Program-made: the position numbers and the translations under genes
Shown: positions 25,083 to 62,994 of the stretch, in pieces
Layout: each line of letters opens with the position of its first letter
Numbering within the stretch: position 1 is the first letter of the stretch
Notes under the pieces: generated by a model
The model's input: the letters and a program-made list of their open reading frames with translations, nothing else
What the model was told of the DNA's origin: nothing
Database searches by the model: none
Origin: Hyphomonadaceae bacterium
GTDB lineage: Bacteria; Pseudomonadota; Alphaproteobacteria; Caulobacterales; Aquidulcibacteraceae
DNA length: 64,000 bases
NCBI GenBank assembly: GCA_019753105.1
Contig: JAIELJ010000003.1
Span: forward strand, 1-64,000
Reading direction: 5' to 3'

Positions 25083-25158
25083 GGGCCCGTAGCTCAATGG
25101 TTAGAGCCGGCCGCTCATAACGGTCTGGTTCCTGGTTCGAGTCCAGGCGGGCCCACCA
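25083..25158 (+). tRNA. tRNA-Ile (anticodon CAT, lysidine-type)
   Basis: 76 bp with encoded CCA. Acceptor GGGCCCG pairs with CGGGCCC; D-stem GCTC/GAGC; anticodon stem GGCCG/CGGTC with loop CTCATAA, giving anticodon CAT; T-stem CCTGG/CCAGG around TTCGAGT. The overall sequence resembles tRNA-Ile2, whose C34 is modified to lysidine to read AUA, rather than the elongator or initiator tRNA-Met. The gene marks a classic integration hot-spot, with accessory genes on both sides. Confidence 0.93.
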
Positions 25159-38852: not shown

Positions 38853-39295
38853 GCTCGCGCCTCCGTGTCGGCGCTCGCGCCATTCAGATGGCCGTGCGGC
38901 GCCGCGGCGAAGAGCGTGCGGCCTGGCTGCAAACTCTCGGCAAGCAGCTCAAGAAAGGATTGGAAACGGCGCTCGGCGATCGCGTGCGTCGCAGGCAATG
39001 TCGCTTCGTCGGGCGCCGGATTGTGCTCGAGCCAGACACGAATGAAGAGAAGCAGTGTCTCCTTGATGATGGCGATCTCGCGGGCGCGCACGACTTCGCG
39101 TTTCTCGAGACGGTCGAGCCGCATCTTCACGGTGTCGGCGACCGCTTCGTCCTTCTCGTCGAGATAGATGCGGCGCATGGCGTCGGCCGCAGCGCGCGTA
39201 GTGGCAAGACCTCGAAGACGCGCATCGACATCGAGCGCACGCGCCAAATCGTCTTCAAGGTAGATCGTGATCTTCTTTCTTGGGCGCGCGCTCAT
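38849..39295 (-). CDS. Ribbon-helix-helix (CopG-like) protein
   Basis: 148 residues. The N-terminus ARPRKKITIYLEDDLARALD is a typical ribbon-helix-helix DNA-binding strand and helix; the remainder is helical with many charged residues. It lies between traG and trbB with 4-bp overlaps on both sides. A CopG-like gene here is a recurring feature of alphaproteobacterial trb clusters and probably serves as an autoregulator of transfer genes. Confidence 0.82.
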   Translation of the reverse strand: MSARPRKKITIYLEDDLARALDVDARLRGLATTRAAADAMRRIYLDEKDEAVADTVKMRLDRLEKREVVRAREIAIIKETLLLFIRVWLEHNPAPDEATLPATHAIAERRFQSFLELLAESLQPGRTLFAAAPHGHLNGASADTEARA

Positions 39296-41355
39296 GATGG
39301 CGTCTCCGAACCACCACCGCCGCCGGCTTCGCGGGGTCGCAAGTCGAAGCCGACAGGCGTATGCGGCGGCGATGGTGGCGGGGGAGGAGAGGGAGGCGAC
39401 GTCGACTCGACGGACTCCGGCGGCGGCGCATCCGCAGGACGATCAATCAAGGTCAGGAGATCGGCTTGCTGTTCGCTTGCACGCGGGCGTGATCGCAACG
39501 GCCCTTGGCGCACGACGGCGCGAGCAACTGCGCCGTCCCGGCCAGGCGCCTTCTCCGCTTGGGTCGGCGGCGCTGCGTCGCGGAGGCCGAGCGAACGCAT
39601 CGCCGCCCACGGCGAGGGAAGGGCAGGGCGCGCTTGCGGAGATGGCAAGGCGAAGAGCCGAGATGCGAAGAGAGGCTCTTCATCGTAGCGCAGCTTCTTT
39701 GCGCGGAGAGGCTTCGCACCGGTCACGAAGATAAGTTCATCGCGCTCTGGCAACTGGCGAACTTCCGCCGGCATCAGCAGCGGACGGCGTTCCTCGGGAT
39801 AGGTTATGGCGCGATGATCGAGGCCGAAGAGCTGACGCTTGCCCGACCAGGTCTCTTGCGGGCGCATCTCATAAAGATCGCCGGCAAGCTTCGAGACGGT
39901 CTCCGCGGTCTCGACATCGGTCGCGGCAAAACTGGTGACGATCTGACAATTGTCGAGGATGGTGTGATAGCGCCCGTAGGCTTGGGTCACCTGGTGCAGG
40001 CTTTGCGTGACGATAAAGGCGCGCACCCCATAGCCCGCCATTGCACCCATCGATTGCTCGAACAGATCGAGCTTACCAAGTTGCGGGAATTCATCGAGCA
40101 ACAGCAGGAGCGGACGCTTCTTCGCGCGCCCGTCGGCTGCGCGCTCCTGATGCTCCATCAGATCGCGGAGCACCGCGCCGAAGACGAGCCGCATCAACGG
40201 CTTCACACGCTTGGAATCGTTTGGCGGCCAGCAGAGATAGAGCGTGACGGGTTTGTCGGCGCACATGAGGTCCGAAATGCGGAAGCTCGACGCCGCCGTG
40301 TTCTGCTGCACCAGCGGATCGGCAAAGATGCCGAGATAGCTCTCAGCGGTCGCTTTGATTCCGGCGCGGAGCTTCTCGTGATAGGCGGCGTAAGATTGTG
40401 CCGCGCGGCGCACCTCAGGGTGCGTTTCAGGATTTCCGTCGGCGCCCAAGCGATGAAGCGTCGCTTCCATCAGCTTTACGGTGTCATCGAAGCGCGCGAG
40501 CAGTTCGAACACGCGATAGAGCGTCTTGCGATCTTCGGGTTCGGCATAGGCGACGTGAAGGATAACGCCGGCGATCACCTGTTTGGCGGCGCGGTCCCAG
40601 AATTCCTGGAAGCGCTGATCGCCATAAGGATCGGCGATGAGCTCGGTCAGGTTCTGAACGTCGCGAACTTCCTGCGGACCTGGCCTTATAGTGTCTAAGA
40701 GATTGAAGCGGTCGGACGTAGGCGAGGTCGGATCGAAGCGCAGGACTGGGCCGAGCTTGGCGCGCCAGCCGGCCGTCCCCGGAAAGCCGACGCGCGCATC
40801 GCCCGAGTGCAGTTCGCCCTTAAGGTCGAGCGACACGACAGAGTGCGGCGTCGCCAGCAGGGTTGGGATAACGGCGCCGCGCGTCTTGCCCGAGCGCGTG
40901 CCGCCTGTGAGCAACAGATGATGCGGGCCGTCATAGGCGAGAATCTCAGCGCCCATCTTACCGATGACAATGCCGCCCTCGGCGAAGAGCCCGGCAGCTG
41001 CCGCGTCATCAGCGCCACCCCATGCGTCTTTGCCGAATATACCAGACGTGGGCCGGTGTGAGCGCAGGCCAAACAGCAAGACGCCGGCGGCGGCCAGGAA
41101 GCCCAGAAAGACAATAAGCTTCGGCACGAAGAAGGCGCGGGGGTAAACCGGCGACCAGCGCTTCGACCAATCGAGGATCGAGAACGGCGCATAGACCGGC
41201 GTCGACCCAATCGACAACAATGGGCGTCCGAGTGCGGGTTGATAGTCGAACGTTCGCGCACACGATTGCGTCGCCGCAAAGCCAGCGACGATGCTGATCG
41301 CAAACGCTGCGACACAGCTCCAAATCGATCGCGCAGTAAGCTTGCCCACCAACAT
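39292..41355 (-). CDS. traG: Conjugal-transfer coupling protein TraG (VirD4 family)
   Basis: 687 residues from the ATG giving MLVGKLTARSIWSC; a TTG 45 bases upstream is possible. Two N-terminal membrane segments precede the ATPase: Walker A LTGGTRSGKTRGAVIP, Walker B PLLLLLDEFPQLGKLDLFEQ, and TQSLHQVTQAYG. A Pro/Ser-rich C-terminal tail follows. VirD4/TraG couples the relaxase-DNA complex to the channel. It is the first gene of the operon and is divergent from the luxR gene at 41534, with about 180 bp between. Confidence 0.94.
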   Translation of the reverse strand: MLVGKLTARSIWSCVAAFAISIVAGFAATQSCARTFDYQPALGRPLLSIGSTPVYAPFSILDWSKRWSPVYPRAFFVPKLIVFLGFLAAAGVLLFGLRSHRPTSGIFGKDAWGGADDAAAAGLFAEGGIVIGKMGAEILAYDGPHHLLLTGGTRSGKTRGAVIPTLLATPHSVVSLDLKGELHSGDARVGFPGTAGWRAKLGPVLRFDPTSPTSDRFNLLDTIRPGPQEVRDVQNLTELIADPYGDQRFQEFWDRAAKQVIAGVILHVAYAEPEDRKTLYRVFELLARFDDTVKLMEATLHRLGADGNPETHPEVRRAAQSYAAYHEKLRAGIKATAESYLGIFADPLVQQNTAASSFRISDLMCADKPVTLYLCWPPNDSKRVKPLMRLVFGAVLRDLMEHQERAADGRAKKRPLLLLLDEFPQLGKLDLFEQSMGAMAGYGVRAFIVTQSLHQVTQAYGRYHTILDNCQIVTSFAATDVETAETVSKLAGDLYEMRPQETWSGKRQLFGLDHRAITYPEERRPLLMPAEVRQLPERDELIFVTGAKPLRAKKLRYDEEPLFASRLFALPSPQARPALPSPWAAMRSLGLRDAAPPTQAEKAPGRDGAVARAVVRQGPLRSRPRASEQQADLLTLIDRPADAPPPESVESTSPPSPPPPPSPPHTPVGFDLRPREAGGGGGSETPS

Positions 41356-41518
41356 ATCGAAAGCGTCGCTGCGATCGGCGGAGCGGGCCACAGCTTGCAA
41401 CTATGTGAGGCGCCGCAGCAGTGCGTGCTCGACGCGCGTGCGATTTTCGTCACCGGCATTGGTGTTAAGTGATCAATTTGGGCAGACGCGAAGTGGTGAA
41501 GTGGCGCGAGAAAGATGC

Positions 41519-41533: not shown

Positions 41534-42268
41534 ATGAGCTTTGGTGTCGTTACCGGCGAGTTAGTGACGTTCGCTTCGCGATGCGATGCGGCGCAGTCCC
41601 TTGTCGAACTCGAAACGATCTGGCGTCAGCGCATGAGTGAACTCGGCTTCACTTTCGCGGCGATAGGCGCGCATGTTGATCCGCTGAAGCCCGAGCGCGC
41701 TAGTTACGTCTTTCAAAATTATCCGGGCGACTGGATCGCGCACTTTTCAGAGCAGCGCTATCATCTCATCGATCCTGTCTTCCGTGCAGCCGATGCGGGC
41801 GTCGCGGACTTCGCTTGGACCGACCCTGAATTCGTGGCGCCGCTGTCGTGGCGACAGCGGCGCATCTTGAACGAGGCCAGCGAATTGGGGCTGCACTTTG
41901 GGCGGACGCACGCATTGGCGTCGATGCTTCGCCTCAAGGCCTCGGGGCATTTGGTGGCGGGCGAGCCCGACATGCCGGAAGATGTCTACACCGCCGGCAA
42001 GATCGCAAATGTTCTCGTGCATCACCGCGCCGCGCAGCTTTGCGCCGAGGTCGCGCCAAGTTTTGAGCCGTTGCGACGGCGAGAACGTCAGTGTCTCGAA
42101 CTTTGCGCAAGCGGCCTGACCGATGCAGAAGCCGCGGCGAAGCTTCAGATCGGGGTAGCCACCGTGCGGCGTCACATCGAGCGCGCGCGCGTTCGGCTGG
42201 GCGCTGGCACGCGCATTCAGGCCGCCGCGCGCGCTATCAGTTCAGGCCAGATCAAGCCTATTATTTGA
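41534..42268 (+). CDS. LuxR-family quorum-sensing regulator (luxR1)
   Basis: 244 residues. The N-terminal autoinducer-binding domain keeps the Trp, Asp-Pro and second Trp of the family with exact spacing (DWIAHFSEQRYHLIDPV ... FAW) and the later conserved Gly; Phe stands where Tyr is usual, and the motif after that Gly reads GRTHA rather than the more common GITIP. The C-terminal LuxR HTH is LRRRERQCLELCASGLTDAE ... VATVRRHIERARVRLG. It is the first of two luxR genes and faces away from traG. Confidence 0.9.
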   Translation: MSFGVVTGELVTFASRCDAAQSLVELETIWRQRMSELGFTFAAIGAHVDPLKPERASYVFQNYPGDWIAHFSEQRYHLIDPVFRAADAGVADFAWTDPEFVAPLSWRQRRILNEASELGLHFGRTHALASMLRLKASGHLVAGEPDMPEDVYTAGKIANVLVHHRAAQLCAEVAPSFEPLRRRERQCLELCASGLTDAEAAAKLQIGVATVRRHIERARVRLGAGTRIQAAARAISSGQIKPII

Positions 42269-42423
42269 TCGCCGCCTCGACCGCATTCGAAAATTTTGGG
42301 GAAGATTTCTCACAATATTTCCAGGCTGCTCGCACGTCCAACAACACGTCATGAATTTGTCACGCGCGGCCTTGTCACCGAGGGCCCTTCGCCATCTAAA
42401 GTTGCGTGGGCAAGGAGACAATC

Positions 42424-43155
42424 ATGCAAGCGCGCGTGAACTGGGCGTTCGCGGAAATCTGCGACGGCGCCGCAAGTGTTGCAGACCTGCAGGCAGCTTT
42501 CATGCGCGAGATGCGCGCCCTGGGTTTCAGTTATGCGGCGTGCGCCTCGCATGTCGATCCGCTCAAGCCACCGGCGGAGGCTGTGATGATGGTCGACTAT
42601 CCGCAGACGTGGCTTGAGCGCTTCAGCGCAAAGAACTACGCGACGCGCGATCCGGTGTTCAGAGCCGCGCGTCAGCAGACGCTGCCGTTTCAGTGGAGCG
42701 ACGTGCGCTTCCGGCGAGGTCTTGCCGCCGATCAGTTGCGCATTCTGCACGAAGCGGCAGAGGCAGGTCTTGGCGACGGCATCACCATTCCCATTCACGC
42801 GCCCGATGCGTTGCCGGCGTCCTGTTCGCTTGTGATCGGTCCGGACGGGATTGACCCGCTCAATGCACAGAGGGCGACATGGTTTGGGGTGTACGCGCAC
42901 GAATGCGCGCGCCGCCTGCAGATGGCGCAGTTGCCGGCGAAACCTCAATTGAGCCCTCGCGAACGCCAGTGCGTGCAACTACTGGGGCAGGGCAAGGATG
43001 ACGGCGCGATGGCGGTCATCTTGGGCCTCAGCGAACACACGGTGCACAACATCGTTCGCCGCGCCATGAACAAATACGGCGTTGCCAGCCGTGTACAGGC
43101 TTTCGTGCGTGCGTTGAAGGACGGACAAATTCGTCTGGAGGACGTCGCCACCTGA
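42424..43155 (+). CDS. LuxR-family quorum-sensing regulator (luxR2)
   Basis: 243 residues from the ATG preceded by AAGGAG. The autoinducer-binding domain has all expected landmarks (TWLERFSAKNYATRDPV, FQWSDV, and GDGITIPIHAP). The HTH is LSPRERQCVQLLGQGKDDGAMAV ... EHTVHNIVRRAMNKYG. It lies 96 bp upstream of the luxI-type gene, the standard pairing for an acyl-homoserine-lactone circuit. Paralog of luxR1. Confidence 0.93.
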   Translation: MQARVNWAFAEICDGAASVADLQAAFMREMRALGFSYAACASHVDPLKPPAEAVMMVDYPQTWLERFSAKNYATRDPVFRAARQQTLPFQWSDVRFRRGLAADQLRILHEAAEAGLGDGITIPIHAPDALPASCSLVIGPDGIDPLNAQRATWFGVYAHECARRLQMAQLPAKPQLSPRERQCVQLLGQGKDDGAMAVILGLSEHTVHNIVRRAMNKYGVASRVQAFVRALKDGQIRLEDVAT

Positions 43156-43163
43156 TCATTTTT

Positions 43164-43192
43164 ACGAGCGTGTCAATAGGCACGTTCGTGCC
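43164..43192. promoter_or_regulatory. Candidate lux-box-like operator upstream of luxI
   Basis: ACGAGCGTG (43164-43172) and CACGTTCGT (43181-43189) match at 8 of 9 positions as an inverted repeat with an 8-bp spacer. Overlapping it, GGCACG TT CGTGCC (43179-43192) is a perfect palindrome. Both lie 60-88 bp upstream of the luxI-type start, a natural place for LuxR binding. Sequence differs from the canonical lux box, so this is inference. Confidence 0.5.
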
Positions 43193-43251
43193 CGTTTTCG
43201 CCAGCGCGTTCCCTGCGCAAACTCTGGGCTCTGACCGAGCCCGGAGGCCCT

Positions 43252-43881
43252 ATGATCCACATCATCACCGCCGATAACCGGCGCCACTACCATCACGCGC
43301 TGATGGAGATGCACCGCCAGCGCAAGGAGGTGTTTATCGACCAGATGAAATGGCGCCTCGATGAAAGCGCTGGCATTGAGATCGACGCCTACGACTGCCC
43401 GGAGGCGATCTATTTGATCGAAGCGGCCGCGCCACGCGCGCCAGTGATGGGCTCGGCCCGCTTGCTGCCGACCGATCGGCCGCATCTGCTCGGCGATCAT
43501 TTTGGCTTCCTGTGCGATGGCGACCTGCCGGCCGGCCCAGATGTTTGGGAAGCGACGCGGTTTTGTCCAGCGCCCGATACGGCGCCGGGCCAGCCCAGAC
43601 ACGATCTCCTCGCGCGCATGATCGCCGCCATCATGGAGACCGCGCTTATCTTCGGCATCGAGCAAGTCACGTTTGTTTCGAGCGCTGCGCTCACGCCATT
43701 GGCGGCGAAGGCTGGCTGGGACGCCCAGCCGCTGGGCGCGGCCCGCCGGGTGGGACGCGACCGACTGACGGTCTTTGTCGCCGCCATCGACCAGCGCGGG
43801 CTTCGGCGCGTGCGCGAACGCAACAACATCAAGACACCAGTGACCCGCTTTTTTGGCGGCGAACTCATCCAAGCGGCGTGA
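43252..43881 (+). CDS. LuxI-family acyl-homoserine-lactone synthase
   Basis: 209 residues, GGAG seven bases upstream. Family landmarks are present: the N-terminal MHRQRKEVFIDQMKWRLDES, then EIDAYDCPEAIYL, MGSARLLPTDRPHLL, and WEATRFCPAPD. The enzyme makes an acyl-homoserine lactone from SAM and an acyl carrier protein or CoA; the acyl chain cannot be predicted. It is the first gene of the run luxI, 2OG oxygenase, gntR, lasso genes. Confidence 0.95.
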   Translation: MIHIITADNRRHYHHALMEMHRQRKEVFIDQMKWRLDESAGIEIDAYDCPEAIYLIEAAAPRAPVMGSARLLPTDRPHLLGDHFGFLCDGDLPAGPDVWEATRFCPAPDTAPGQPRHDLLARMIAAIMETALIFGIEQVTFVSSAALTPLAAKAGWDAQPLGAARRVGRDRLTVFVAAIDQRGLRRVRERNNIKTPVTRFFGGELIQAA

Positions 43882-43893
43882 AGGAGAGACATC

Positions 43894-44793
43894 ATGATGA
43901 AGGCCTCGAACGTCGTTTCGTTTGCTCCAGCACATCAGGATCATTTTTCCACGCTCGAACGCGACGGCTTTGTCGTTCTCGACAGCGTGCTCGATGAGCG
44001 CCAATGCCAAACGTTGGACCGCGAGTTGGAGCCGCTGTTTGAAGCAACGCCGCGCTGCCAGGGCGACTTCTATGGCTGGAACACGACGCGTGTCGGCGGG
44101 CTCCTATCGAAGGCGCCCAGCGTACGCAATCTTGTGCTCGATCCTTACATCCTCGCGATCGCGGAGGCGTTGCTGGCGCCGAATTGCGATTGCATTCAGT
44201 TGAACCTAACGCAAGCTGTGCGCGTGCACGGACAGGAGCGGCCGCAAGCGCCCCATCGCGATGAAGAGATGTGGCCATGGCCGACGAATGGGCGCCATTG
44301 GCTCCTCAACGTGATGTGGGCGGTCAGCGATTTTACCGACGAGAACGGCGCGACGCGACTCTGGAAGGGGAGTCACCGTGGCGACCTCGATCGTAACGCC
44401 GATCCCTCGCAAAGCATCCCTGGCGCGATGAAGCGCGGTTCGGCGCTCCTCTTTCTGGGATCGCTCACGCACGGCGCAGGGCAAAACCTGACGGCGTTGC
44501 CGCGCACCGGCATCATCGTTAGCTATTGCTTGGGCTGGTTGAAGACGTACGAAAATCAGTTTCTCGCTTATCCGCGCGAAGTCGCAGCGAGCTTCCCCGA
44601 AGATCTACAGCGTCTCATCGGCTATCGCATGCACCGGCCCAATCTCGGCGGTTGGGAAGGACAAGATCCAATCGCCTATCTTCGCGATCGGCGCGGGCCC
44701 ATGCCGCATGTCGACGCGTTGACGCCGGAGATCGAGGCGCAGCTTCGCAATCATTACGGCGAGTACCAGAAGCGAGGCGGGGATGGCGCTTGA
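43894..44793 (+). CDS. Phytanoyl-CoA dioxygenase-family 2OG-Fe(II) oxygenase
   Basis: 299 residues, strong AAGGAGAG upstream. The iron-binding HxD is in QAPHRDEEMWPW, the distal His in FLGSLTHGAGQNLT, and the 2-oxoglutarate-binding Arg in RTGIIVSYCLGW. The Leu/Asp-rich N-terminus (DGFVVLDSVLD) is typical of PhyH proteins. It starts 12 bp after luxI and overlaps gntR, so it belongs to the same transcript as the lasso genes. It could hydroxylate a lasso residue or an unrelated small molecule. Confidence 0.9.
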   Translation: MMKASNVVSFAPAHQDHFSTLERDGFVVLDSVLDERQCQTLDRELEPLFEATPRCQGDFYGWNTTRVGGLLSKAPSVRNLVLDPYILAIAEALLAPNCDCIQLNLTQAVRVHGQERPQAPHRDEEMWPWPTNGRHWLLNVMWAVSDFTDENGATRLWKGSHRGDLDRNADPSQSIPGAMKRGSALLFLGSLTHGAGQNLTALPRTGIIVSYCLGWLKTYENQFLAYPREVAASFPEDLQRLIGYRMHRPNLGGWEGQDPIAYLRDRRGPMPHVDALTPEIEAQLRNHYGEYQKRGGDGA

Positions 44794-45394
44794 TCCGCGT
44801 CCCGGCGAGCGCGTCTATCAGGAGATCAAGCAGGCAATTTTGTCGGGGGAGCTTGTCATTCTGCAACGCCTGGACATCGACAAGCTCGCTTCTCAGTTTG
44901 GCGTGAGCGCCACCCCGGTTCGATATGCTTTGGCGATTCTGGCTGCAGAGCGCCTCGTTAGATTGAATACGTCGCGGATCTATCAAGTCGCGTTTTGGTC
45001 GGAGCGCGAGTTGCGCGAACTCTATCAATGGCGCCAACAGCTGACGAAGTGGGCGCTCCAATCGTATTCGCCAGCCTCCGCACCGGTCGCGCTAAACGGC
45101 AATGATTATGCGGGGGCGTACCTAACATTGATGGGCCATATTGACCGCAACGCCAACACCGAGGCGCGGCGCGCCGGCCGTTCTGCGGACGAAAGGCTTC
45201 AGCAGGCGCTTCGCGCAGAAGCGGAGGTCCTTCCAGGTGCGTCTGATGATATCAGGAAAATCGTCGCTTCTCTCAACCGCGGCGGCGCGTCCCCGGGAAA
45301 TACGCTGCGAAGATATTTTGAACGACGCATCAGTCATTGCGCGCTCATACGAAGCGCCGCGCACGCCAAGGCGATGCCGAACAATGGCGCCTAA
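44783..45394 (+). CDS. GntR-family transcriptional regulator
   Basis: 203 residues; ATG overlaps the preceding stop by 11 bp. The N-terminal winged HTH is GERVYQEIKQAILSGELV followed by DKLASQFGVSATPVRYALAIL. The C-terminal domain is shorter and less regular than FCD or UTRA domains. From memory, GntR-type regulators also occur beside astexin-type lasso clusters. It probably acts on the lasso genes that follow after a 112-bp gap. Confidence 0.85.
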   Translation: MALDPRPGERVYQEIKQAILSGELVILQRLDIDKLASQFGVSATPVRYALAILAAERLVRLNTSRIYQVAFWSERELRELYQWRQQLTKWALQSYSPASAPVALNGNDYAGAYLTLMGHIDRNANTEARRAGRSADERLQQALRAEAEVLPGASDDIRKIVASLNRGGASPGNTLRRYFERRISHCALIRSAAHAKAMPNNGA

Positions 45395-45506
45395 TCGTAC
45401 TTCGAAAAACTTCCAACGAAATCTTTAGTCAGATAGTCCGCCAAATCTTGCCTCGCAGCGGCAAGCTGTCACTCGCCGCAAAGTCATGCGGTGGATGGAG
45501 AGTGCA

Positions 45507-45632
45507 ATGCGTGAAGATACGGAACGCCAAGAAGACATCGTGGACCTCGGCGCTGCGACGGAAGTGACGCAAGGGATCTATGATCCCGTGAAGAAGGAAA
45601 ACCTCGTCACGCCGCAAGCGCGCGATTTCTGA
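45507..45632 (+). CDS. Lasso-peptide precursor A1
   Basis: 41 residues; the ATG is chosen because GGAG lies six bases upstream, as for A2 (upstream ATGs at 45486 and 45495 lack this). The leader ends DLGAATEVTQ with Thr at -2, as in known lasso precursors. The predicted core is GIYDPVKKENLVTPQARDF: Gly1 would bond to Glu9, closing a nine-residue ring, with a ten-residue tail. By hand, the macrolactam core mass would be about 2171.14 Da monoisotopic. Ring closure is predicted from position only. Confidence 0.85.
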   Translation: MREDTERQEDIVDLGAATEVTQGIYDPVKKENLVTPQARDF

Positions 45633-45640
45633 TCCGCCCT

Positions 45641-45672
45641 CTGCGGCGCGGGCGTTGTCGTTTGCGCCGCAG
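45641..45672. repeat. Hairpin between precursors A1 and A2
   Basis: CTGCGGCGC (45641-45649) pairs perfectly with GCGCCGCAG (45664-45672). No T-run follows, so it is not a typical terminator; it may stabilise or process the transcript. A matching hairpin follows A2. Confidence 0.75.
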
Positions 45673-45696
45673 ATCAGCTTCTGAAGGAGCTTTGTG

Positions 45697-45828
45697 ATGG
45701 AAAACCGCGAAGACCTGGATCACGATGAGATCGTGACCGACCTGGGCGCCGCGAGCGAGGTCACGCTCGGGGTTTGGGACCCGATTTTCAAAGAAAACTT
45801 CGTGTCGCCGCACATGCGCGACATGTGA
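45697..45828 (+). CDS. Lasso-peptide precursor A2
   Basis: 43 residues; GGAG lies seven bases upstream of the ATG. The leader ends DLGAASEVTL, again with Thr at -2. The core is GVWDPIFKENFVSPHMRDM, with Gly1-Glu9 as the expected macrolactam. It shares 10 of 19 core positions with A1 (G1, D4, P5, K8, E9, N10, V12, P14, R17, D18), so the pair arose by duplication. Hand-calculated macrolactam mass is about 2286.07 Da monoisotopic. Confidence 0.87.
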   Translation: MENREDLDHDEIVTDLGAASEVTLGVWDPIFKENFVSPHMRDM

Positions 45829-45840
45829 CCTCGTGAGGAA

Positions 45841-45866
45841 CGCCGGGCGCGATCAGGCGCCCGGCG
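45841..45866. repeat. Hairpin between precursor A2 and the B gene
   Basis: CGCCGGGCGC (45841-45850), loop GATCAG, GCGCCCGGCG (45857-45866): perfect 10-bp stem. It ends 8 bp before the ATG of the leader-peptidase gene, and no T-run follows. It may limit translation or stability downstream relative to the precursors. Confidence 0.8.
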
Positions 45867-45874
45867 TCGCAGCC

Positions 45875-46519
45875 ATGACACTCTACCAACTAAGCCCGTA
45901 CGTCCGCGCATGCAGGGACGGCGGCTACATTGTCTTTCTTGATTTGCGTCTCGATCGCTACTGGAGCGTCCCAGCGCAAACTGCTCCCGTCATCCCCGGA
46001 CTCGTGGAGGGTGAATGTGCGCATGGCCGGGGCGCCCGGCTCATTGAGATGGGGCTGATCGAGCCTGCCAGTGCCGGTTCGGACCTTGTTGAGCCGCGCG
46101 CGGCAGCGCCAGAGCAGAAACTTTTGCCCACGAACCAATCTGGGGCGTCGCCGTTCGAGTATGGTCTGTGCGCGTCTGCATGCTGGTGGGCGGCCAGAAC
46201 GCTCGCGCGCCGCAGATTGGATCTGACGCTTGCTAGCTTGGCCGAGCTCAAGTCGCGCGCTGCGAAGCCCAAGGCAGATGCGCAACATTTGATTGGCGTG
46301 TTCGAGGAAGTTCGACCTTGGTTTCCGCGTCAGCGCGTGTGTCTCTTCGACGCCCTGGCGCTTTTCCGCTTCATGGTGATGCGTGGGCTGAAACCGGACA
46401 TCGTCTTTGGCGTGCGCACCGCGCCTTTCGCCGCTCATTGCTGGGTCGAGTGGCAAGGCAGGCTCGCCGGCGACAGTTCTGATCATTGCGCGTCCTTCAC
46501 TCCGATAGCCTGGGTGTGA
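45875..46519 (+). CDS. Lasso-peptide biosynthesis B protein (fused B1/B2)
   Basis: 214 residues from ATG 45875; an earlier GTG at 45833 would put the hairpin inside the gene. Residues ~1-75 are the leader-binding B1 (PqqD-like) part (LYQLSPYVRACRDGGYIVFL DLRLDRYWSV). The C-terminal B2 domain is a transglutaminase-like cysteine protease with Cys156 (RVCLFDALALFRF), His188 (PFAAHCWVEW) and Asp200 (LAGDS). It cuts off the leader before ring closure. Ends 3 bp before the synthetase gene. Confidence 0.92.
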   Translation: MTLYQLSPYVRACRDGGYIVFLDLRLDRYWSVPAQTAPVIPGLVEGECAHGRGARLIEMGLIEPASAGSDLVEPRAAAPEQKLLPTNQSGASPFEYGLCASACWWAARTLARRRLDLTLASLAELKSRAAKPKADAQHLIGVFEEVRPWFPRQRVCLFDALALFRFMVMRGLKPDIVFGVRTAPFAAHCWVEWQGRLAGDSSDHCASFTPIAWV

Positions 46520-46522
46520 CCC

Positions 46523-48322
46523 ATGGCGTTCGTTGGTTTGCGCTGGACGCCAGGAGAGCGCGAGCAGACACGCGCTGCGCGCGCGTTTGCCGAACGTCTA
46601 ACCGAGGGCGCCACGAATCTCATCGACTGGCGTGGCCTTGTGCTGCTTCATCGCGGAGCAGGGCCCATCGAGAGTCTACCTCATGGCATGGGCTTCGTTT
46701 TCGGCGAACGCTTCGGGCGCGAGCCTGATCCCTCGCCGCCATGCGAGTCGTGCATCGATCCCACGCCAACATGGATCGCCGACCGATGGGGCGCTTACAT
46801 CGCCGTGCTGATCGATCGCGGCTTTGACATTGTTCGCGTGCTTCGCGAGCCAAGCGGCGCGCGTTCTTGCTTCCTCTCCGAGATCAATGGCGTGCGCATC
46901 TTCTTCTCCGATGCTGAAGACTTCCTTCGCTTAGCACCTGATACCCGCGCCGACCTTGGGTTCATTCGCGCATTCTTGCGATACCCACCGCATGTTGGCC
47001 GGCGAACCGGCCTTGAAGGCGTTGAGGAACTCGCGCCTGGAGAGTGCGCGATCTATCCGCGGCAAGGTTGGTCGATTGAGGCGGCCTGGACGCCACGGGA
47101 TTTCGCGCGCGCCAAAAAGCCGCTTGATTGGTGCGAAGGCAAAGAGGCGTTGCGCAGCGCGGCGGACGCGACCGTAAAGGCGTGGGGCGGACCGCACGGG
47201 CGGATCGCGCTTCGGCTGTCAGGCGGTTTGGATTCATCAGTCATGCTGGGACTGCTCCGCCGCAACACCGAGGCGGAGGTCATCTGCGTCACGGAATACT
47301 GGGAAGGCGCGCCCGAGGGCGACGAGCGCTGCTACGCGCACGCTGTGGCAGGCGCAAATGGAGCGGAACTCAAGGAGCTGCGCTTCGATCCCGCGCGGGT
47401 AACCTATGCGCTGTGCTTGAACGCGGGGCTTACGGCCAAACCCACACTTTCGTTGCTCAGTCTGGGCAATCGCGATCTCACGGCGTTCTACGACGGCCTT
47501 GGCGCTAGCCTTGTTACATCCGGTCAAGGCGGAGACCATCTCTTCCAGCGCAGCCGCACGCCTTGGATCGCAGCCGATGCGCTTTGCGACGGCGTGCGTC
47601 CCGGTAGGCTCATGGAGATCGCGCTCGACACGGCGCGGCTCACCGGACAATCGGTCTGGGATGTGTTAGCCGCCATGATAGTCGGCGCGGCGCGGCTGAA
47701 GTCGCCGGTTCGGCCTCACTCCAGTGTCATGGGCGCCCTCACACCGGCAGGGGACGATGCTGAGGCGCCGCCAGACCATGCGTGGCTGGCCAAGCTGCGA
47801 TGGGCGGCGCCTGCGCGCGTGCTCAGAATTCATCAGCTGCTGCAAGCGCTCAGCTATTTTGATGAAGGCGCGCTACCCGGCGGCGGCCGAACGCACCCGT
47901 TGCTGTTATCGCAGCCGATCGTCGAAACCTGTCTACGCGTCCCGCCTTATGTGATGACGGCAGGCGGCAAGGAGCGTGCTCTGGCACGCGCGGCGTTCGC
48001 GGATCTCGTTTCTCTCGATGTCGCGCGCCGCGTCACCAAGGGCGAAACTACGCGCTATTTTGCGGCCGTCCTTGCGTCCAACGAAGCTTGGATTCGTGAC
48101 CTCCTGCGCAGAGGCAGGCTCGTTGAAAGCGGCGTCGTCAATTCCGAGGCGCTTGAACGGGCGCTCGCCGGCGGCTGGCTGCAAGATGGAATGGCGGCTG
48201 ACGGTCTCTATGCACTGATCGCCGCCGAATGTTGGCTCAGGAACTTGGAGACGGCGCGCGAGCGGGCCATCTCGGCGCTAGCGGCGGCCAGTGCGGTCCC
48301 GCAGGGCACGCCAACGGTCTAG
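46523..48322 (+). CDS. Lasso-peptide macrolactam synthetase (asparagine-synthetase-like)
   Basis: 599 residues. The PP-loop ATP-binding motif SGGLDSS lies at about residue 233, as expected for the C protein, which adenylates the Glu9 side chain and joins it to the N-terminal amine. The N-terminal region (residues ~1-190) is the degenerate class-II glutaminase-like half without a Cys1. It ends in a 45-bp tail-to-tail overlap with the isopeptidase gene on the other strand. Confidence 0.93.
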   Translation: MAFVGLRWTPGEREQTRAARAFAERLTEGATNLIDWRGLVLLHRGAGPIESLPHGMGFVFGERFGREPDPSPPCESCIDPTPTWIADRWGAYIAVLIDRGFDIVRVLREPSGARSCFLSEINGVRIFFSDAEDFLRLAPDTRADLGFIRAFLRYPPHVGRRTGLEGVEELAPGECAIYPRQGWSIEAAWTPRDFARAKKPLDWCEGKEALRSAADATVKAWGGPHGRIALRLSGGLDSSVMLGLLRRNTEAEVICVTEYWEGAPEGDERCYAHAVAGANGAELKELRFDPARVTYALCLNAGLTAKPTLSLLSLGNRDLTAFYDGLGASLVTSGQGGDHLFQRSRTPWIAADALCDGVRPGRLMEIALDTARLTGQSVWDVLAAMIVGAARLKSPVRPHSSVMGALTPAGDDAEAPPDHAWLAKLRWAAPARVLRIHQLLQALSYFDEGALPGGGRTHPLLLSQPIVETCLRVPPYVMTAGGKERALARAAFADLVSLDVARRVTKGETTRYFAAVLASNEAWIRDLLRRGRLVESGVVNSEALERALAGGWLQDGMAADGLYALIAAECWLRNLETARERAISALAAASAVPQGTPTV

Positions 48323-50308
48323 GCGGCCCGGGTCCTCGGGCTCCTCGCGTTCGATGCCGCGTAACCAGAAATCGAGCCAGTCCATTGCCCGTGTCTGTGC
48401 GGCCAAGAGCTGAGCCGGCCGCCATTTGATGTGATAAGCGCCCGGATAGACGTAAGCGTCGACGGGACGATTGAGTTCTTCGAGCCGCGTCGCCAATGGA
48501 AATCCCATGATGGCTTCGCTTTCAGCGAGGTTCATGAGTAGAGGCGCGCGTATCCGCTCCGCATGCAGCGCTGTCGTGTTGCGCGCCCACCAGGCCGCCC
48601 ACGGATCGTCGCCTACGGCGTAGGGCCCGCGCATACCCTCGCTCAAGAGGCTCTGGCGGAACGCGCGTGAGCCGAGCGTCCATGCCGTCGTGTCCGTGGG
48701 CTGCGTGCTGGCGACGGCCGCTGCGAACAGCTCCGAATTGGTGATCGCCCAATAGAGGGTCTCCGCGCCGTCGCTGAGCCCAGTGATGCCGATGCGGCGT
48801 GGATTGCTGAGGCCGCGCCGGTCAAGCTCAGCGAGCATGGCCTCAAGCGCGGACTGCTTCATTAGATTCTCGGAGTTATCCAACGCTGTTCGCTGATCGA
48901 GCTCCGCTTGGGGAAGGGATGCCTCGGCGCCGCGCCATTCGGGACGATCGACACTCAGCACGAAGTAACCGCGGCCGGCCAGCGGCAGAATGGGATACTC
49001 GCCGCCGACGCCGCCGCGCAGAAACCCGCGCGAGCGGTACTGGACCACAACGACGGGATAACGACGCCCGGGTCGATAGTTTGCGGGGAAGACGAGATGG
49101 GCGAAGGAGTCGTTACCGTAAGCGTCGTTGACTTCGATGGTCTCAATGCGGGGCTGATCGAACGCACGCCAATCAGGATTTGGATCGTAAAGTTGGGCGA
49201 GATCGCCCGTATCGACGTCGATGGAGACAATGCGGCGCGGCTGGAGCGGGCCCTCCTGCAGGCAGATCAGCCGCGCGGCCGCGCGGCCACAAGCAAACAA
49301 TTCTTCGTCTTCTCTTCGGATGCGGCGAACCGTGTTTGCGCGCCAGTCCCATGCATAAAGCGCGGTCAGACCGCCCCCGTGTCCTTCCATCCGGCGAAAC
49401 ACAATCCGATCGGCGAAGATCCATGCGCCAAGCATGCGTCCGCTGCAGGCGGGATCATCGCACGTCATGACGTCGCGACCTTCGTCGGCGGCGTAGTAGA
49501 GGCCGAGCGCGGGGGTCGAGGCTTGATCGCCGGCGATGCGCGGCGCAATCCAGGCAACCGCGTCGCTGGTTCGATCATTTGCAATAGCATTGAGCGGCGC
49601 AGGACGGCGTGGCTGGACGTTGAGTTGCGCGCTCTCGTCGGGCGACGCTGCCCGCTCTGCGCGCGTTGCAGCATTGACGACAAGCTGCACGCGCGCGTGA
49701 TCGATCGTCGCGCGCGGTGTGAGGCTCGCGTAAGGCGTGAAGAAGTCGTCGGGATGGAAGCCGTACGTCGCTGCATGTGATGAGGCAGCGCTCAAGGCGT
49801 CGCGTGGAGCGGCTGTTTCCACGACGAGATTGGTCTCGTCGAGCCACACAAAGCGAAGCACTTCACCGGGTCCATCGACGAGCAACTGAGCGGCCGCGCC
49901 GTCCGGCGAGACGCGCCAGAGTTCGGCGCGCCCATCGCGTTCAGCGATGTAAGCAAGATAGCGTCCATCGGGCGACCAAACCGGCGCCCGGTCCGCTGCG
50001 GCGCCGGTCGGGCCATAGGGAGTATCGCGCAAAATGATGTCGCCTGCGTCGGCGATCTCGCGTGGCGAACCTCCCGCGCTCGGCATCACGAGAAGCCGAT
50101 AGCGGTAGTCATTCTCCCGCACGCGCGTTTCGCGGGCGAACACCGCCAGCGTTTGGCCATCGGGCGAGATAGACAGGCCGCCGCGATAGTCGCCCAATTC
50201 GAGGAGCGCGAGCAGATCTTCCGCAGTTGGGGGGCGCGCCGCTGCTTGGCCTGAAAAGAGGAGGGTGAGCCCCGCCAATGCAGCGGCGCGCGTGAAGCGC
50301 GCTACCAA
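48278..50308 (-). CDS. Lasso-peptide isopeptidase (S9 family, AtxE-like)
   Basis: 676 residues with a signal peptide (AAALAGLTLLFSGQAAA). A beta-propeller occupies residues ~40-390; the hydrolase domain has the nucleophile Ser512 (ITGLSDGAE), His626 (PGAYHIKW) and probably Glu596 (NLAESEAIMG), the Glu-containing triad I recall for AtxE2. Such enzymes open the isopeptide bond of threaded lasso peptides in the periplasm. It overlaps the receptor gene by 7 bp and is translated after it. Confidence 0.9.
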   Translation of the reverse strand: MVARFTRAAALAGLTLLFSGQAAARPPTAEDLLALLELGDYRGGLSISPDGQTLAVFARETRVRENDYRYRLLVMPSAGGSPREIADAGDIILRDTPYGPTGAAADRAPVWSPDGRYLAYIAERDGRAELWRVSPDGAAAQLLVDGPGEVLRFVWLDETNLVVETAAPRDALSAASSHAATYGFHPDDFFTPYASLTPRATIDHARVQLVVNAATRAERAASPDESAQLNVQPRRPAPLNAIANDRTSDAVAWIAPRIAGDQASTPALGLYYAADEGRDVMTCDDPACSGRMLGAWIFADRIVFRRMEGHGGGLTALYAWDWRANTVRRIRREDEELFACGRAAARLICLQEGPLQPRRIVSIDVDTGDLAQLYDPNPDWRAFDQPRIETIEVNDAYGNDSFAHLVFPANYRPGRRYPVVVVQYRSRGFLRGGVGGEYPILPLAGRGYFVLSVDRPEWRGAEASLPQAELDQRTALDNSENLMKQSALEAMLAELDRRGLSNPRRIGITGLSDGAETLYWAITNSELFAAAVASTQPTDTTAWTLGSRAFRQSLLSEGMRGPYAVGDDPWAAWWARNTTALHAERIRAPLLMNLAESEAIMGFPLATRLEELNRPVDAYVYPGAYHIKWRPAQLLAAQTRAMDWLDFWLRGIEREEPEDPGRLDRWRALRDRTGRR

Positions 50309-53292
50309 CGCTGCCTCACTTCGACCATGACAACGCGTCCCACCGGCGAGGCGTTCAACGTATCGAAACCCATGCCAATCGGATTGTTGGCGAATGGAGG
50401 ATCCTCGTCAGTGAGATTGCGAACGTCGAGCGTAATCTCTGTCCCTGCGCCGTCATCGCCGACCTGGAAGTGGCGTGAGAGGCGCGCGTCGAACGTCGAC
50501 CACGATGAGATGTCACGGGCCGGCGTGCTGAACGTGTCGCGGTAGTCGTCCGTGTATTGCATCGAGAGCGCGCCGCGCCACGCGCCGGTGTCGAGCGCGA
50601 CGCCCGCACGGGCGCGCCAGTCCACCGGGTTGAGCATGGTATCGAGCACGTCGGCGCTCGCGAGCGACGGATTGTTCTGTCGCGAGAACTGCAACAGGCC
50701 GCTTGCGGTGGCGAACAGTGAGAGTTCGCCGAAGCGTGTGTCGAAGGCATAGGACGCGTTGAGGTCGACGCCGCGCACGCGCAGCGAGGCCAGGTTGGTC
50801 AGCCGCTCGTCCCAGATGACTTCAATCCCATCCGGCGGAATAACGCCGGATACATCGTCAGTCAGTCCTAAATAGAAGGCGATCTGATCCGGCGTTGGGT
50901 TGCGAATGAAATAGCCTTCGTATTGTTCGGGGTTCTGGAAGGCGTCGAGAATAAAGCCGGGGATTGCGATCCGGTTCGAGAAGGTGATGTCGAAATACGT
51001 GGCCGAGAGCCGGAATCCGTTGAGCCAACCCGGCGCAAGTTCAAAGCCCGCGGTCCAGGTCTCGGCTTCCTCTGGCTCAAGCTCACGATTGGCCCCGAGA
51101 ATTTGCAGTAGTCCGGTGGATCCGTTGGTGGCGTCAGGATCTAGAAAAGCCGGAAGCGAACCGATCGTGGCGCCGGTCCCTCCCAGCATCTGGGCAAACT
51201 GCGGCGCCTTGAAGGACTCACCCCAAGTCGCTCGCAGAGTGAGATCAGTGAACGGCGTCCATTGCAGGCCGATCTTCGGCGTAGTTGCGTCGCCGAAGTC
51301 AGAAGAGTCTTCGCGGCGCACCGAGAGCGACAAGGATACGGTGTCGAACACGGGCAAGAACGCCTCGGCATAAATCGCATCGGTGGTGCGCTCGCCCGGC
51401 TCTTGCGTGAATGGATTGGTGATAAGGCCCGAACCAGAGGTCTCGGTTCGGTCGATGCTGAAGGTCTCGTCGCGCCGTTCGATCCCCAATGCGACACGCG
51501 CGCGACCGCCGGGTAGATCGAACACACCGCCATCAGCGCGCAGCGCGTAACCCGTCAGCTCTGAATCGGTCTCAATATGCTGGCGCATTGTAAGTGCGGC
51601 CAGCGCCGCGGCGGGCGTATCACCGCCGTCGCCAAACGGATTGAACGCAATTGAAGGATCCGAACTGGCAAGCGCCGCGCCGATCGCCCCGGAATCGGCG
51701 ATGTTGGTGTTATCCACCTCGTCGGCGTGAAAGCCGTAAGAGATGCTCGCCTCGACGCGCCAATCCGAGCGCAGCGCGAATTCCAGACCTGCCGCCGTCG
51801 CGATGGTGTCGGACTGTGTATCCGTCATCAGCGGACCGAGATCGTCGCCGAAGAAATAAGCGAGGTAGATGTCGCCATCTCCGGCAAACAAGCCGTTCTG
51901 TTGGCGATAGTAGTTCGTCTCCGGAACGGCGACGACACCGCCGAGCTGCGCCTTCTCGGCGTGAGCCTCACGTTGCGACGCCAACACATCGACGAAGAGG
52001 CGGACGTTCGCGTTGAAATCGTGGCTGAGCGATCCAAACAGCGAGTGGCTCTGCTGCTCCGGCAACAAGAACGAGCCCTCATTGCCGTTTTGCAGATTGA
52101 CCACGCCGTTGAGCAGATCGCCTTCGCTAAGCGTAAGACCGTCCTGACCGTCTGGGATTGCGAGTGTGACGGGCGCGCCGCCCACCAGAATGATGTTCCC
52201 TGGTGAAGCCGTGAAGCGGGAAAAGTTCGTGCCGCCGAACGGCGTGAGATCTGTGTTTGCCGCGTAATCGCGGTCGGACGCAGCGAGCGCATCGCGCTGG
52301 CGATACTCATAGCCGGCGATCAACGAGCCGCCGGACCAGTCCGTACCCAGTACATGAGAAAATCCAATCTCATTCATGCCGTCGGCGACGCTGAACCGGG
52401 CGCTTGTTTCAGGATGGTCCAGCGTGCGCCGAAGCAGGACGTTCACCACGCCGCCCACTGCGTCGCTGCCATACGTGGCCGATGCGCCGTCAGCGAGCAC
52501 TTCGACGCGCTCGATCGCGGCCAGAGGGATGGCGGAGATATCAACGAAGTTGCCAAGGCCCGCCGGCGCGAGGCGGCGCCCGTTGAGCAGGGTAAGTGTT
52601 GCGTCGGAGCCCAAACCGCGAAGGTCGACCGTCGAGCCCAATGCGATGTTGTTGCCGGGCGCCGTTGAGTTGAGCTGAGTGAGTTCGCCTTGGCTGCCTG
52701 GAAAGACCTGCGGAAGTGTTTGCAGTAGGTCTTGGACGGTCGTGCGGCCGCTCTCTTCTATATCGCCGCGATCAAGCGTGAGGAGATTGGCGCCGGCGGG
52801 CACGGCGCCGCGGATGCGCGTGCCGGTGATTACGATCTCTTCGTCCGGCGGGGCGGCGGCCTCTGACGCATCTGCGGTTGCTTGATTGGAATCAACGGCG
52901 CCGTTCGCGGCGCTCTCCCGCTGGGGGCGGGAGGATTGCTCCTGCGCCAGCACGAGATTGCCGCCATTGATGCGGCCACTATAGCCAGAGCGCGCCAACA
53001 GCCGCGTCAGCGCCTCTTCGGGCGTGAACGAACCGCGCAGCGCCGGGGAGGAGAGGCCGCGCAGGTCGTCTGAGAAATAGAGCGCGTTGACGCGAGCCTG
53101 GCGCGCGAACTCGCTCAAGGCGCTGCTCAAGGGCTGAGCGGCGATATCGAACTCGACGCGCTCGTCGGCGCTGACGCGCTGTAATTCTTGCGCGAGCGCG
53201 GGTTCTGCGCTGATTGCGCTCATCGCGCCGATCATCAACGCGGCGGCCAGCTTTCGCTGGCGCTCTTCGCGCTTCGTGGTCTTGCCCTTCAT
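50302..53292 (-). CDS. TonB-dependent receptor with STN signalling domain
   Basis: 996 residues: signal peptide (residues ~1-34), then an STN domain (VEFDIAAQPLSSALSEFARQ ... LRGSFTPEEALTRLLARSGY, ~46-105), a TonB-box/plug start (EEIVITGTRIRG, ~150), and the 22-strand barrel ending VVMVEVRQRW. An STN domain signals ligand binding to a FecR-type anti-sigma regulator. It forms an operon with the isopeptidase and likely imports or senses the lasso peptides. Confidence 0.92.
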   Translation of the reverse strand: MKGKTTKREERQRKLAAALMIGAMSAISAEPALAQELQRVSADERVEFDIAAQPLSSALSEFARQARVNALYFSDDLRGLSSPALRGSFTPEEALTRLLARSGYSGRINGGNLVLAQEQSSRPQRESAANGAVDSNQATADASEAAAPPDEEIVITGTRIRGAVPAGANLLTLDRGDIEESGRTTVQDLLQTLPQVFPGSQGELTQLNSTAPGNNIALGSTVDLRGLGSDATLTLLNGRRLAPAGLGNFVDISAIPLAAIERVEVLADGASATYGSDAVGGVVNVLLRRTLDHPETSARFSVADGMNEIGFSHVLGTDWSGGSLIAGYEYRQRDALAASDRDYAANTDLTPFGGTNFSRFTASPGNIILVGGAPVTLAIPDGQDGLTLSEGDLLNGVVNLQNGNEGSFLLPEQQSHSLFGSLSHDFNANVRLFVDVLASQREAHAEKAQLGGVVAVPETNYYRQQNGLFAGDGDIYLAYFFGDDLGPLMTDTQSDTIATAAGLEFALRSDWRVEASISYGFHADEVDNTNIADSGAIGAALASSDPSIAFNPFGDGGDTPAAALAALTMRQHIETDSELTGYALRADGGVFDLPGGRARVALGIERRDETFSIDRTETSGSGLITNPFTQEPGERTTDAIYAEAFLPVFDTVSLSLSVRREDSSDFGDATTPKIGLQWTPFTDLTLRATWGESFKAPQFAQMLGGTGATIGSLPAFLDPDATNGSTGLLQILGANRELEPEEAETWTAGFELAPGWLNGFRLSATYFDITFSNRIAIPGFILDAFQNPEQYEGYFIRNPTPDQIAFYLGLTDDVSGVIPPDGIEVIWDERLTNLASLRVRGVDLNASYAFDTRFGELSLFATASGLLQFSRQNNPSLASADVLDTMLNPVDWRARAGVALDTGAWRGALSMQYTDDYRDTFSTPARDISSWSTFDARLSRHFQVGDDGAGTEITLDVRNLTDEDPPFANNPIGMGFDTLNASPVGRVVMVEVRQRW

Positions 53293-62007: not shown

Positions 62008-62994
62008 TTACGGAGCAGTGCGGCGCGAAAGGATGACCCGACGCTCGCCTTCGCGTTCGGCCTGCAGATTGAGACTGGTCGACATCAGCTCTATGAACGC
62101 TTCGGGATCGGCGTGGACGTAACCGCCGACGCGTTCAGCGCCGAGCGAGGGATCAGAAAGTTCAAATTGCCAGCCCGTCTGTTGTGAGACTTCAGCGATC
62201 GCCTGGTTTAGTGTCTCCCCATCAAACGCCAACATGTTGTCACGCCATGCAAGGCGGCGGGGGATTGCTTCGGCGTTGATCTCCACCAGTTCGGCATTGC
62301 CTTGTGAAAGCACGATCTCTTCGTTCACCTGCGCGGTGACTGTTGCGCTTTGACCTCCGAGCAGACCTCCGCGGTCGGCGGCGCCGGAGACTGACCCTCG
62401 GAGGACAGTGGTGCGGACTGTATCGCCGGCGATGCGCACCACGAACTCCGTGCCGAGCACGCGAATGTCGCCCTGCGGCGTCTCGACGATGAAGGGCCGG
62501 CGCTCGTCGTGCACGACATCAAAGAGGGCGGAGCCCGCCGTGAGATGAACGCGGCGTTCGTTCTCTTCGATCGCCACCGATGCTTCGCCGGCGCCGGAGA
62601 GCGTGATGGTGGAGCCGTCGTTCAAGGTGATGGTGCGAATTTCGGCGGGTGCGGTGACATAGTGTTGGCCCGGCACCGGCGTAGGGGAGCGCGTGAACCA
62701 GTAGAGGCCGCCGATCGCCATCAGTGCGGACGCGGCGATCGCGATGACGGGCCGCGCCCAGCTGTTGTGCCGTGGCGCGATGTCATTCGCGCCGGCTTGA
62801 CCTTTGAGCGCTGGATTGCCGGCGATCTTCGACCAGGTGCGCTGGAGCGCTTCAAAGGCGGCCGCGTTGGCGGGATCGGCGCTGCGCCAAGCTTCGAACT
62901 CAGCGCGTTCCGCCGCCGACGGCTCGCCGTTCATGCGGACGATCCAATCGCTCGCTTGGCGCTCGGCTTCAGTGAGGGTGCGCCGCCCTGGCAT
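62008..62994 (-). CDS. FecR-family anti-sigma/signal-transducing protein
   Basis: 328 residues. Residues ~1-60 are a cytoplasmic DUF4880-type anti-sigma part (QASDWIVRMNGEPSAAERAE); one membrane segment follows (VIAIAASALMAIGGLYWF), then the FecR domain (APAEIRTITLNDGSTITLSG ... FDVVHDERRPFIVET ... VLGTEFVVR) and a C-terminal STN-like part. It transmits receptor signals to FecI. It follows fecI by 11 bp on the same strand. Confidence 0.92.
   Translation of the reverse strand: MPGRRTLTEAERQASDWIVRMNGEPSAAERAEFEAWRSADPANAAAFEALQRTWSKIAGNPALKGQAGANDIAPRHNSWARPVIAIAASALMAIGGLYWFTRSPTPVPGQHYVTAPAEIRTITLNDGSTITLSGAGEASVAIEENERRVHLTAGSALFDVVHDERRPFIVETPQGDIRVLGTEFVVRIAGDTVRTTVLRGSVSGAADRGGLLGGQSATVTAQVNEEIVLSQGNAELVEINAEAIPRRLAWRDNMLAFDGETLNQAIAEVSQQTGWQFELSDPSLGAERVGGYVHADPEAFIELMSTSLNLQAEREGERRVILSRRTAP

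Follow-up and report, generated by a model that had tools for sequence, protein, structure and literature searches.

Gene clusters for isopeptidase-type lasso peptides have a near-constant architecture, with a GntR regulator gene before the precursor, and a TonB receptor gene and a sigma/anti-sigma pair downstream of the isopeptidase (PMC9266682). The stretch analyzed here (the window: 64,000 nt, the beginning of contig JAIELJ010000003.1 in the 3.87-Mb genome GCA_019753105.1 of a Hyphomonadaceae bacterium) contains a cluster resembling those of the astexin, benenodin, and sphingopyxin type: it has putative precursors, B and C genes, an AtxE2-family isopeptidase, a TonB receptor, and gntR, in the same convergent order. 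Unlike these, it has luxR-luxI-phyH ahead of gntR, and its sigma/anti-sigma pair is not beside tonB, the nearest FecR (62008–62994) and FecI (at about 63009) genes lying some 9 kb from the receptor gene; because of this second difference, it is considered a variant of the isopeptidase type. The interpretation favored here, with a probability of roughly 0.6, is that an acyl-homoserine lactone (AHL) quorum-sensing front is joined via GntR to an isopeptidase-type lasso cluster, with precursor transcription gated by cell density and with exchangeable payloads.

In Novosphingobium and other sphingomonads, the same three genes (luxR-luxI-phyH) occur in the same order as in the window; phyH adjoins luxI in four of five pairs there, and a proposal of a quorum-regulated operon with phyH is cited (PMC3704786). 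The map in that paper spans 5,000 bp around luxI, and the word "lasso" does not occur in its accessible text; on plasmid Lpl of Novosphingobium sp. PP1Y, the isopeptidase gene begins about 7 kb from luxI, with C, B, and A at about 9–12 kb. Lasso output may also be tied to AHL levels for capistruin of Burkholderia thailandensis, indirectly there: unlike in the window, AHL raises the repressor ScmR, capABCD includes an ABC transporter, and the local regulator is listed as unknown (PMC6963729). No description of a luxI-led lasso cluster was found in the open full-text literature (most subscription papers fall outside this coverage), nor in the accessible parts of PMC3704786, PMC6963729, PMC8776678, PMC13352647, PMC9266682, and PMC7549694. 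The initial annotation of the window, made from its letters, likewise treated the arrangement as not known to be described; the layout itself proved to be common in genomes of the family, and is a recurring class rather than a one-off.

Genes of the luxI-led locus

Translations and family scans of the window bear out the annotated gene set with its two preceding luxR genes: luxR, luxR, luxI, phyH, gntR, two lasso precursor genes, B, and C form a one-directional run on the plus strand. The six gaps given in the initial annotation are also reproduced (luxI–phyH, 12 bp; phyH/gntR, an 11-bp overlap; gntR–A1, 112 bp; A1–A2, 64 bp; A2–B, 46 bp; B–C, 3 bp), an agreement that presupposes starts at 45507 for A1, 45697 for A2, and 45875 for B. 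C faces the isopeptidase and TonB receptor genes, which lie on the minus strand; the converging 3′ ends overlap by 45 bp.

Both LuxR proteins, luxR1 (41534–42268; the open reading frame (ORF) runs from 41291, and the ATG at 41534 is the presumed start) and luxR2, adjoining luxI (42406–43155), carry autoinducer-binding (PF03472, 67 and 107 bits) and GerE (PF00196, 37 and 44 bits) domains, each over cut-off. They are followed by luxI (43252–43881; PF00765, 70.5 bits), predicted to encode an AHL synthase, and by phyH (43894–44793; PF05721, 101 bits), predicted to encode an Fe(II)/2-oxoglutarate oxygenase. LuxI keeps its catalytic residues: R24, F28, W34, D45, D48, E100, and R103 are invariant among 14 aligned sequences, and Arg24, Phe28, and Trp34 are named in PMC3704786. 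The gntR gene (44783–45394; PF00392, 53 bits) stands at the apparent seam between front and payload, and the gap after it (45395–45506) holds an AT-rich block, read by eye as a possible GntR operator or second promoter.

The two putative precursors, A1 (45507–45632; predicted core GIYDPVKKENLVTPQARDF) and A2 (45697–45828; predicted core GVWDPIFKENFVSPHMRDM), match the benenodin model NF033522 at 30.4 and 22.2 bits, under its cut-off of 33. Their translations have a Thr at −2 of the leader, and Gly1 and Glu9 in the core, which we take to be the rule for lasso precursors. The core GIYDPVKKENLVTPQARDF recurs in two other loci, L044 and L050, and GVWDPIFKENFVSPHMRDM in L044, the L050 version differing by one residue. 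The B leader peptidase (45875–46519) is over its cut-off (NF033537, 74 bits, cut-off 33; also PF13471). The C macrolactam synthetase (46523–48322) is over the gathering score of PF00733, with 71 bits, and under the NCBIfam cut-offs (NF033561, 94 bits, cut-off 300; NF033535, 19 bits, cut-off 525). On the minus strand, the AtxE2-family isopeptidase (48278–50308; NF033523, 578 bits, cut-off 400) adjoins the TonB-dependent receptor (50302–53292), with barrel (PF00593), plug (PF07715), and STN (PF07660) domains.

Recurrence in the family, in other relatives, and on plasmids

The genome has three luxI genes and three over-cut-off isopeptidase genes, and all are paired in the convergent arrangement seen in the window, at distances of 4,421–4,481 bp. 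Since a random gene would fall within 10 kb of a luxI with a chance of only about 1.6% (by arithmetic from three luxI in 3.87 Mb), the pairing is beyond chance. Among 60 genomes of the GTDB family, luxI was found at 54 places in 37 genomes and an over-cut-off isopeptidase at 32 places in 20 genomes. In 24 of these 32, luxI lies 4.37–6.10 kb from the isopeptidase in the window's layout; six others are at contig ends, five of them with phyH or gntR up to the edge; and two (G035:C7 and G034:C3:1088713) are without luxI, the latter having only a C fragment beside it, with no B found. From the luxI side, 25 of the 54 places have an isopeptidase within 12 kb (in one, in G037, it is in two fragments, each under cut-off). 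FecR and/or FecI models match near tonB in 15 of the 24 other luxI-bearing family loci; no such matches were found near tonB in the plasmid loci L161 and L166.

The co-occurrence search proposed in the initial annotation finds the pairing repeatedly in the family, and looser or rearranged forms of it in other Caulobacterales families, on sphingomonad plasmids, and in Povalibacter. In the order, isopeptidase matches at 1e-80 were found in at least 36 of 398 genomes, 20 of them in the family (three candidates were scored per genome, making the counts lower bounds). Five of the 20 isopeptidase places fetched outside the family, from a total of 21, carry luxI, some of the order loci being short. 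In four outside-family loci, all from one other family, luxR-luxI is divergent from gntR-B-C; phyH stands behind luxI in three, and the fourth is cut by a contig end. In L056, according to model matches, luxR-luxI-phyH-gntR leads fecI-tonB-isopeptidase.

Five of 15 plasmid records with an isopeptidase (stretches reaching 9–14 kb from it) have luxI and phyH: those of PP1Y, UT26S, Sphingomonas paeninsulae, Novosphingobium ES2-1, and THN1 (where luxI is matched in two frames). The S. paeninsulae plasmid has the window's gene order; in PP1Y, ES2-1, and THN1, the front precedes fecI-fecR-TonB-isopeptidase; and UT26S has luxI and the isopeptidase about 10 kb apart. Two further plasmid cases, Sphingopyxis indica pMC4 and Blastomonas RAC04, were found from the luxI side.

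In the genome collection, B and/or C were found in at least 20 loci, out of 79 loci among the best 80 matches listed; the closest named records among these matches are Terricaulis (Caulobacterales) and "Hyphomonadaceae" metagenome-assembled genomes (MAGs). Three B/C loci are from outside the Caulobacterales relatives: Povalibacter uvarum DSM 26723 (Steroidobacteraceae) and two Proteobacteria MAGs, whose LuxI group with that of P. uvarum in a tree. B is over cut-off in this group (L098, L100, and L102); L098 and L100 have isopeptidases that fall short of their own cut-off. A REP-type transposase gene separates phyH from B in L098; beyond phyH, the distance to B is about 3 kb in L100 and 5.6 kb in L102, where there is an ABC exporter. 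A search of these three loci with a simple precursor pattern found none.

PhyH follows luxI rather than the lasso genes. It was found in all five luxI-bearing isopeptidase plasmid stretches and in none of the 10 without luxI, and in none of 15 luxI-less order loci with an isopeptidase, some of these loci being short. In one subclade (L093–L097), it is next to luxI in five of five loci, with no lasso gene seen in the stretches (10 kb on both sides in L097 only) and no GntR found. GntR is present in many luxI-less lasso loci, where gntR-A-B-C is often kept. Because phyH tracks luxI, PhyH probably belongs to quorum sensing; the module as a whole reads as a quorum-sensing half plus a lasso half. 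The best solved-structure matches of PhyH are the oxygenases SwnH2, DhiD, and PrhA, presumably natural-product enzymes. On two sphingomonad plasmids (L169, 8342–20495, and L171, 8343–20426), luxR-luxR-luxI-phyH stands ahead of a virB-type type IV secretion system (T4SS) operon, with an IS3 transposase gene between luxI and phyH in L169; on a Phenylobacterium plasmid, luxR-luxI leads a virB-type operon without phyH.

Different histories of front and payload

Judged from protein distances, trees, and DNA alignments, the front (luxR-luxI-phyH) and the payload (B-C-isopeptidase-TonB barrel) have different histories. Loci were used where the needed genes were in one piece (20 for the correlations, 23 for the trees, and 21 for the TonB parts). 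The distances of luxR, luxI, phyH, and gntR intercorrelate (r 0.43–0.80, 0/300 permutations each), as do those of B, C, isopeptidase, and TonB (r 0.73–0.82, 0/300); correlations between front and payload are low (−0.11 to 0.23). The block trees conflict on fully supported branches, and three of four clade tests, on groups picked after the trees were seen, reject agreement between front and payload (p 0.0009, 0.00008, and 0.0005).

In three same-site pairs (L034/L047, L032/L036, and L042/L049), LuxR and LuxI share 92–99% identity, against 29–36% for B and C. The flanks of L034 and L047 match with 92.5% DNA identity over 7.2 kb up to mid-gntR; the next 7.6 kb have just two short matching stretches (105 and 191 bases, about 70%), and 89.9% identity resumes within the N-terminal part of TonB. 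The corresponding protein identities are 98% for LuxR, 96% for LuxI, 92% for PhyH, and 66% for GntR, against 29% for B, 29% for C, and 31% for the isopeptidase. Three other pairs are similar: L032/L036 (LuxR 93%, LuxI 92%; B 36%, C 33%), L042/L049 (LuxR 97%, LuxI 99%; B 33%, C 30%), and L014/L040 (LuxR 85%, LuxI 96%; B 32%, C 28%). L014/L051 is a reverse case, with 60% for LuxR and 67% for LuxI, 85–89% for B, C, and the isopeptidase, and 89% for GntR. In relatives where both flanks match, the alignments show a frame that stays, made up of luxR-luxI-phyH and the receptor's N-terminal part, and a payload between that is replaced.

Within TonB, the correlation switches side near aligned column 120, between the STN and plug domains, the N-terminal part correlating with the front (r 0.35). 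At the other end, blastn breakpoints fall near or inside gntR in relatives, and on these alignments gntR is the seam. The sensor half of GntR may travel with the payload, as seen in some pairs, but both halves correlate with the quorum-sensing side.

Some single loci are of interest in themselves. L105 (9130–12095; the same place as L022) has the quorum-sensing front and gntR, and no lasso genes, receptor, or isopeptidase were found in its 20.6 kb. In L048 (9121–11586), the matches to C fall in three distinct frames and no B turned up, suggesting a decayed payload behind an intact-looking front. L021 and L024, both from G035, are on contigs with an identical starting point in phyH; from the N-terminal part of tonB on, their DNA is 92% identical, and their payloads differ. 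They may be paralogues or come from mixed strains.

Regulation, alternatives, and significance

A lux-box-like inverted repeat (43176–43195; 14 of 20 positions symmetric) ends 56 bp before luxI in the window. In most loci, a 20-bp inverted repeat begins 70–82 bp ahead of the luxI start; at this fixed slot, 28 of 37 loci have at least 16 of 20 symmetric positions and 30 have at least 14, several loci being near-identical. Among 22 distinct boxes (from 32 loci), at least two different complementary letter pairs occur at seven of the 10 symmetric position pairs, and the DNA-binding segments of LuxR differ together with the boxes (r 0.67, 0/1000 permutations, with relatedness not removed); L013, L029, L031, L043, and L056, where the box is unclear, were left out of both comparisons. 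The genome's three copies bear three different boxes, and repeats occur in a similar position in several sphingomonad and Povalibacter-group loci. No second copy before the precursors was found among the best four matches of at least 14/20 per locus, plasmid loci included; scanning the window from 35 to 58 kb with its own box, at the same threshold, gave one further match, beyond tonB, and none by traG. L041 alone has a second copy (1632–1651; 17/20) just 5′ of a fecR frame, so that there a single LuxR would also govern the receptor operon. The L093–L097 subclade lacks the usual box; a different short palindrome can be made out by eye about 25 bp ahead of luxI.

Terminator-like sites on the plus strand between luxI and A2 are limited to a weak one within the phyH gene (44432) and another past A1 (45640); over 41.2–53.6 kb there are 15 such sites, against 11.3 in shuffled sequence (standard deviation 3.2), no clear excess. 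A promoter scan of the same region gave no sites, against 2.0 expected.

In the favored interpretation, LuxR2 with AHL made by LuxI would bind the repeat before luxI; a transcript starting at luxI would run at least partly into gntR and A-B-C; and the peptide would be produced chiefly when cells sharing the signal are dense. At the precursor promoter, GntR would impose a further control. PhyH probably modifies AHL or its acyl donor, a role suggested because phyH follows luxI and not the lasso genes. By analogy with the chemistry of the family, the cognate receptor would re-import the peptide, and the cognate isopeptidase would open it. A more far-reaching version, put forward tentatively and with odds somewhat below even, is that the peptide, its enzymes, the isopeptidase, and the receptor barrel are swapped as one unit within a density-gated frame, each locus retaining its luxR-luxI-phyH together with the signalling end of the receptor, and that a genome has up to three circuits, with different boxes and LuxR DNA-binding helices.

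Several observations weigh against the favored interpretation. The window's own repeat, taken alone, has p 0.08 for its 14/20 symmetry, and seven of 37 loci have at most 12 symmetric positions. The 112-bp gntR–A1 gap has an AT-rich block that by eye seems conserved; luxI is divergent from gntR-A-B-C in four loci of relatives, and no box copy was found before gntR in these. The association is also loose in places: 29 of the 54 family luxI places have no isopeptidase within 12 kb (several through contig ends); 11 of 16 outside-family isopeptidase genomes have a luxI somewhere, five of them beside lasso genes; luxI leads FecI/FecR-TonB-isopeptidase rather than the precursors in L151, L155, L159, and L168 (by annotation) and in L165 and L056 (by models); in UT26S, L100, and L102, luxI and the lasso genes are about 4–14 kb apart, with other genes between; and a LuxI tree, made by a quick method with L132 excluded, requires at least six changes of lasso linkage. 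For the separate histories, the fourth clade test (L033, L034, L012, L038, and L047; lasso block) shows no conflict (p 0.77) and reveals the free lasso tree to be suboptimal; the distances of luxI and phyH have a weak correlation with those of TonB (r 0.23; 5/300 and 7/300 permutations); and GntR sides with the front in the correlations, in both halves, and with the payload in several close pairs. The luxI-led transcript proposed in the initial annotation is partly supported: the layout with luxI in the lead stands, with a lux-box-like repeat 5′ of luxI and none found before the precursors, and the linkage persists in further families and in a gammaproteobacterium; the rearranged relatives and the gntR–A1 gap speak against a simple single operon.

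The gap also bears on the possibility that the two halves are simply neighbors under separate control, A-B-C having its own GntR promoter and luxI-phyH-gntR being an upstream operon. Its AT-rich block, the divergent and rearranged layouts in relatives, the luxI-less clusters that often keep gntR-A-B-C, and the largely independent histories of front and payload would all fit this; it is nevertheless considered unlikely, given that the layout is kept in 24 family loci, that the payload has repeatedly been replaced behind the same front, and that there is no clear terminator between luxI and A1. It is more improbable still that PhyH is a lasso-tailoring hydroxylase rather than a quorum-sensing enzyme, since phyH adjoins luxI where no lasso genes are seen, and the luxI-less lasso stretches (10 plasmid and 15 order loci) yielded no phyH. 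Its position between luxI and gntR, in the same direction, would suit such a role; CanE of canucin, an Fe/2-oxoglutarate enzyme, acts on the C-terminal Asp of a lasso precursor (PMC9266682), and several of the cores predicted here end in or near Asp.

Conjugation is another process that the quorum-sensing genes might serve, with the lasso genes as passengers. A traG/virD4 gene (39292–41400, minus strand; PF02534, 271 bits), divergent from luxR1, and other T4SS genes (30.2–38.9 kb) are directly upstream in the window, and traG is next to luxR in seven other loci among the 60 fetched (L012–L071). TraI/TraR systems govern conjugation on rhizobial plasmids; TraI models are the best, and only, NCBIfam matches of the window's LuxI, far under cut-off, and the front leads virB-type operons on the two sphingomonad plasmids (with phyH) and the Phenylobacterium plasmid (without it). 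Unlike in such systems, the window's luxI is co-directional with the lasso genes and runs away from traG, so that it does not head the T4SS operon, and no box copy was found by traG; most of the fetched luxI-lasso loci, including the genome's other two (L032 and L033), show no traG, and the lasso linkage survives rearrangement. A primary role in conjugation thus seems quite unlikely. Also in these surroundings are a Shedu SduA-like defence protein, close to the conjugation genes (29041–29898), and a 577-aa protein with an N-terminal TIR domain (58192–59925). A tRNA-Met gene (25083–25158) was considered as the border of an island and rejected, its 3′ end (at least 14 bases) having no second copy in the first 79,900 bases of the contig; no island border is claimed, integrases having been sought only among the ORFs scanned.

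The proposed density gating bears on what isopeptidase-type lasso peptides do and how they are regulated: a linked AHL circuit yields predictions on the timing of their production and on the cells that profit, and it suggests AHL as an inducer to try on silent clusters. The recurring layout puts the pairing of luxI and phyH, noted in sphingomonads in 2013, into a wider setting, and the comparisons of relatives offer a naturally occurring example of payloads exchanged behind a regulatory frame. The idea can be tested in named carriers (Povalibacter uvarum DSM 26723, Sphingomonas paeninsulae, and Novosphingobium sp. PP1Y). If the frame-and-unit version is true, lasso peptides would be quorum-controlled public goods, recoverable only by cells with the matching receptor and isopeptidase, which would explain both the density control and the diversity of payloads.

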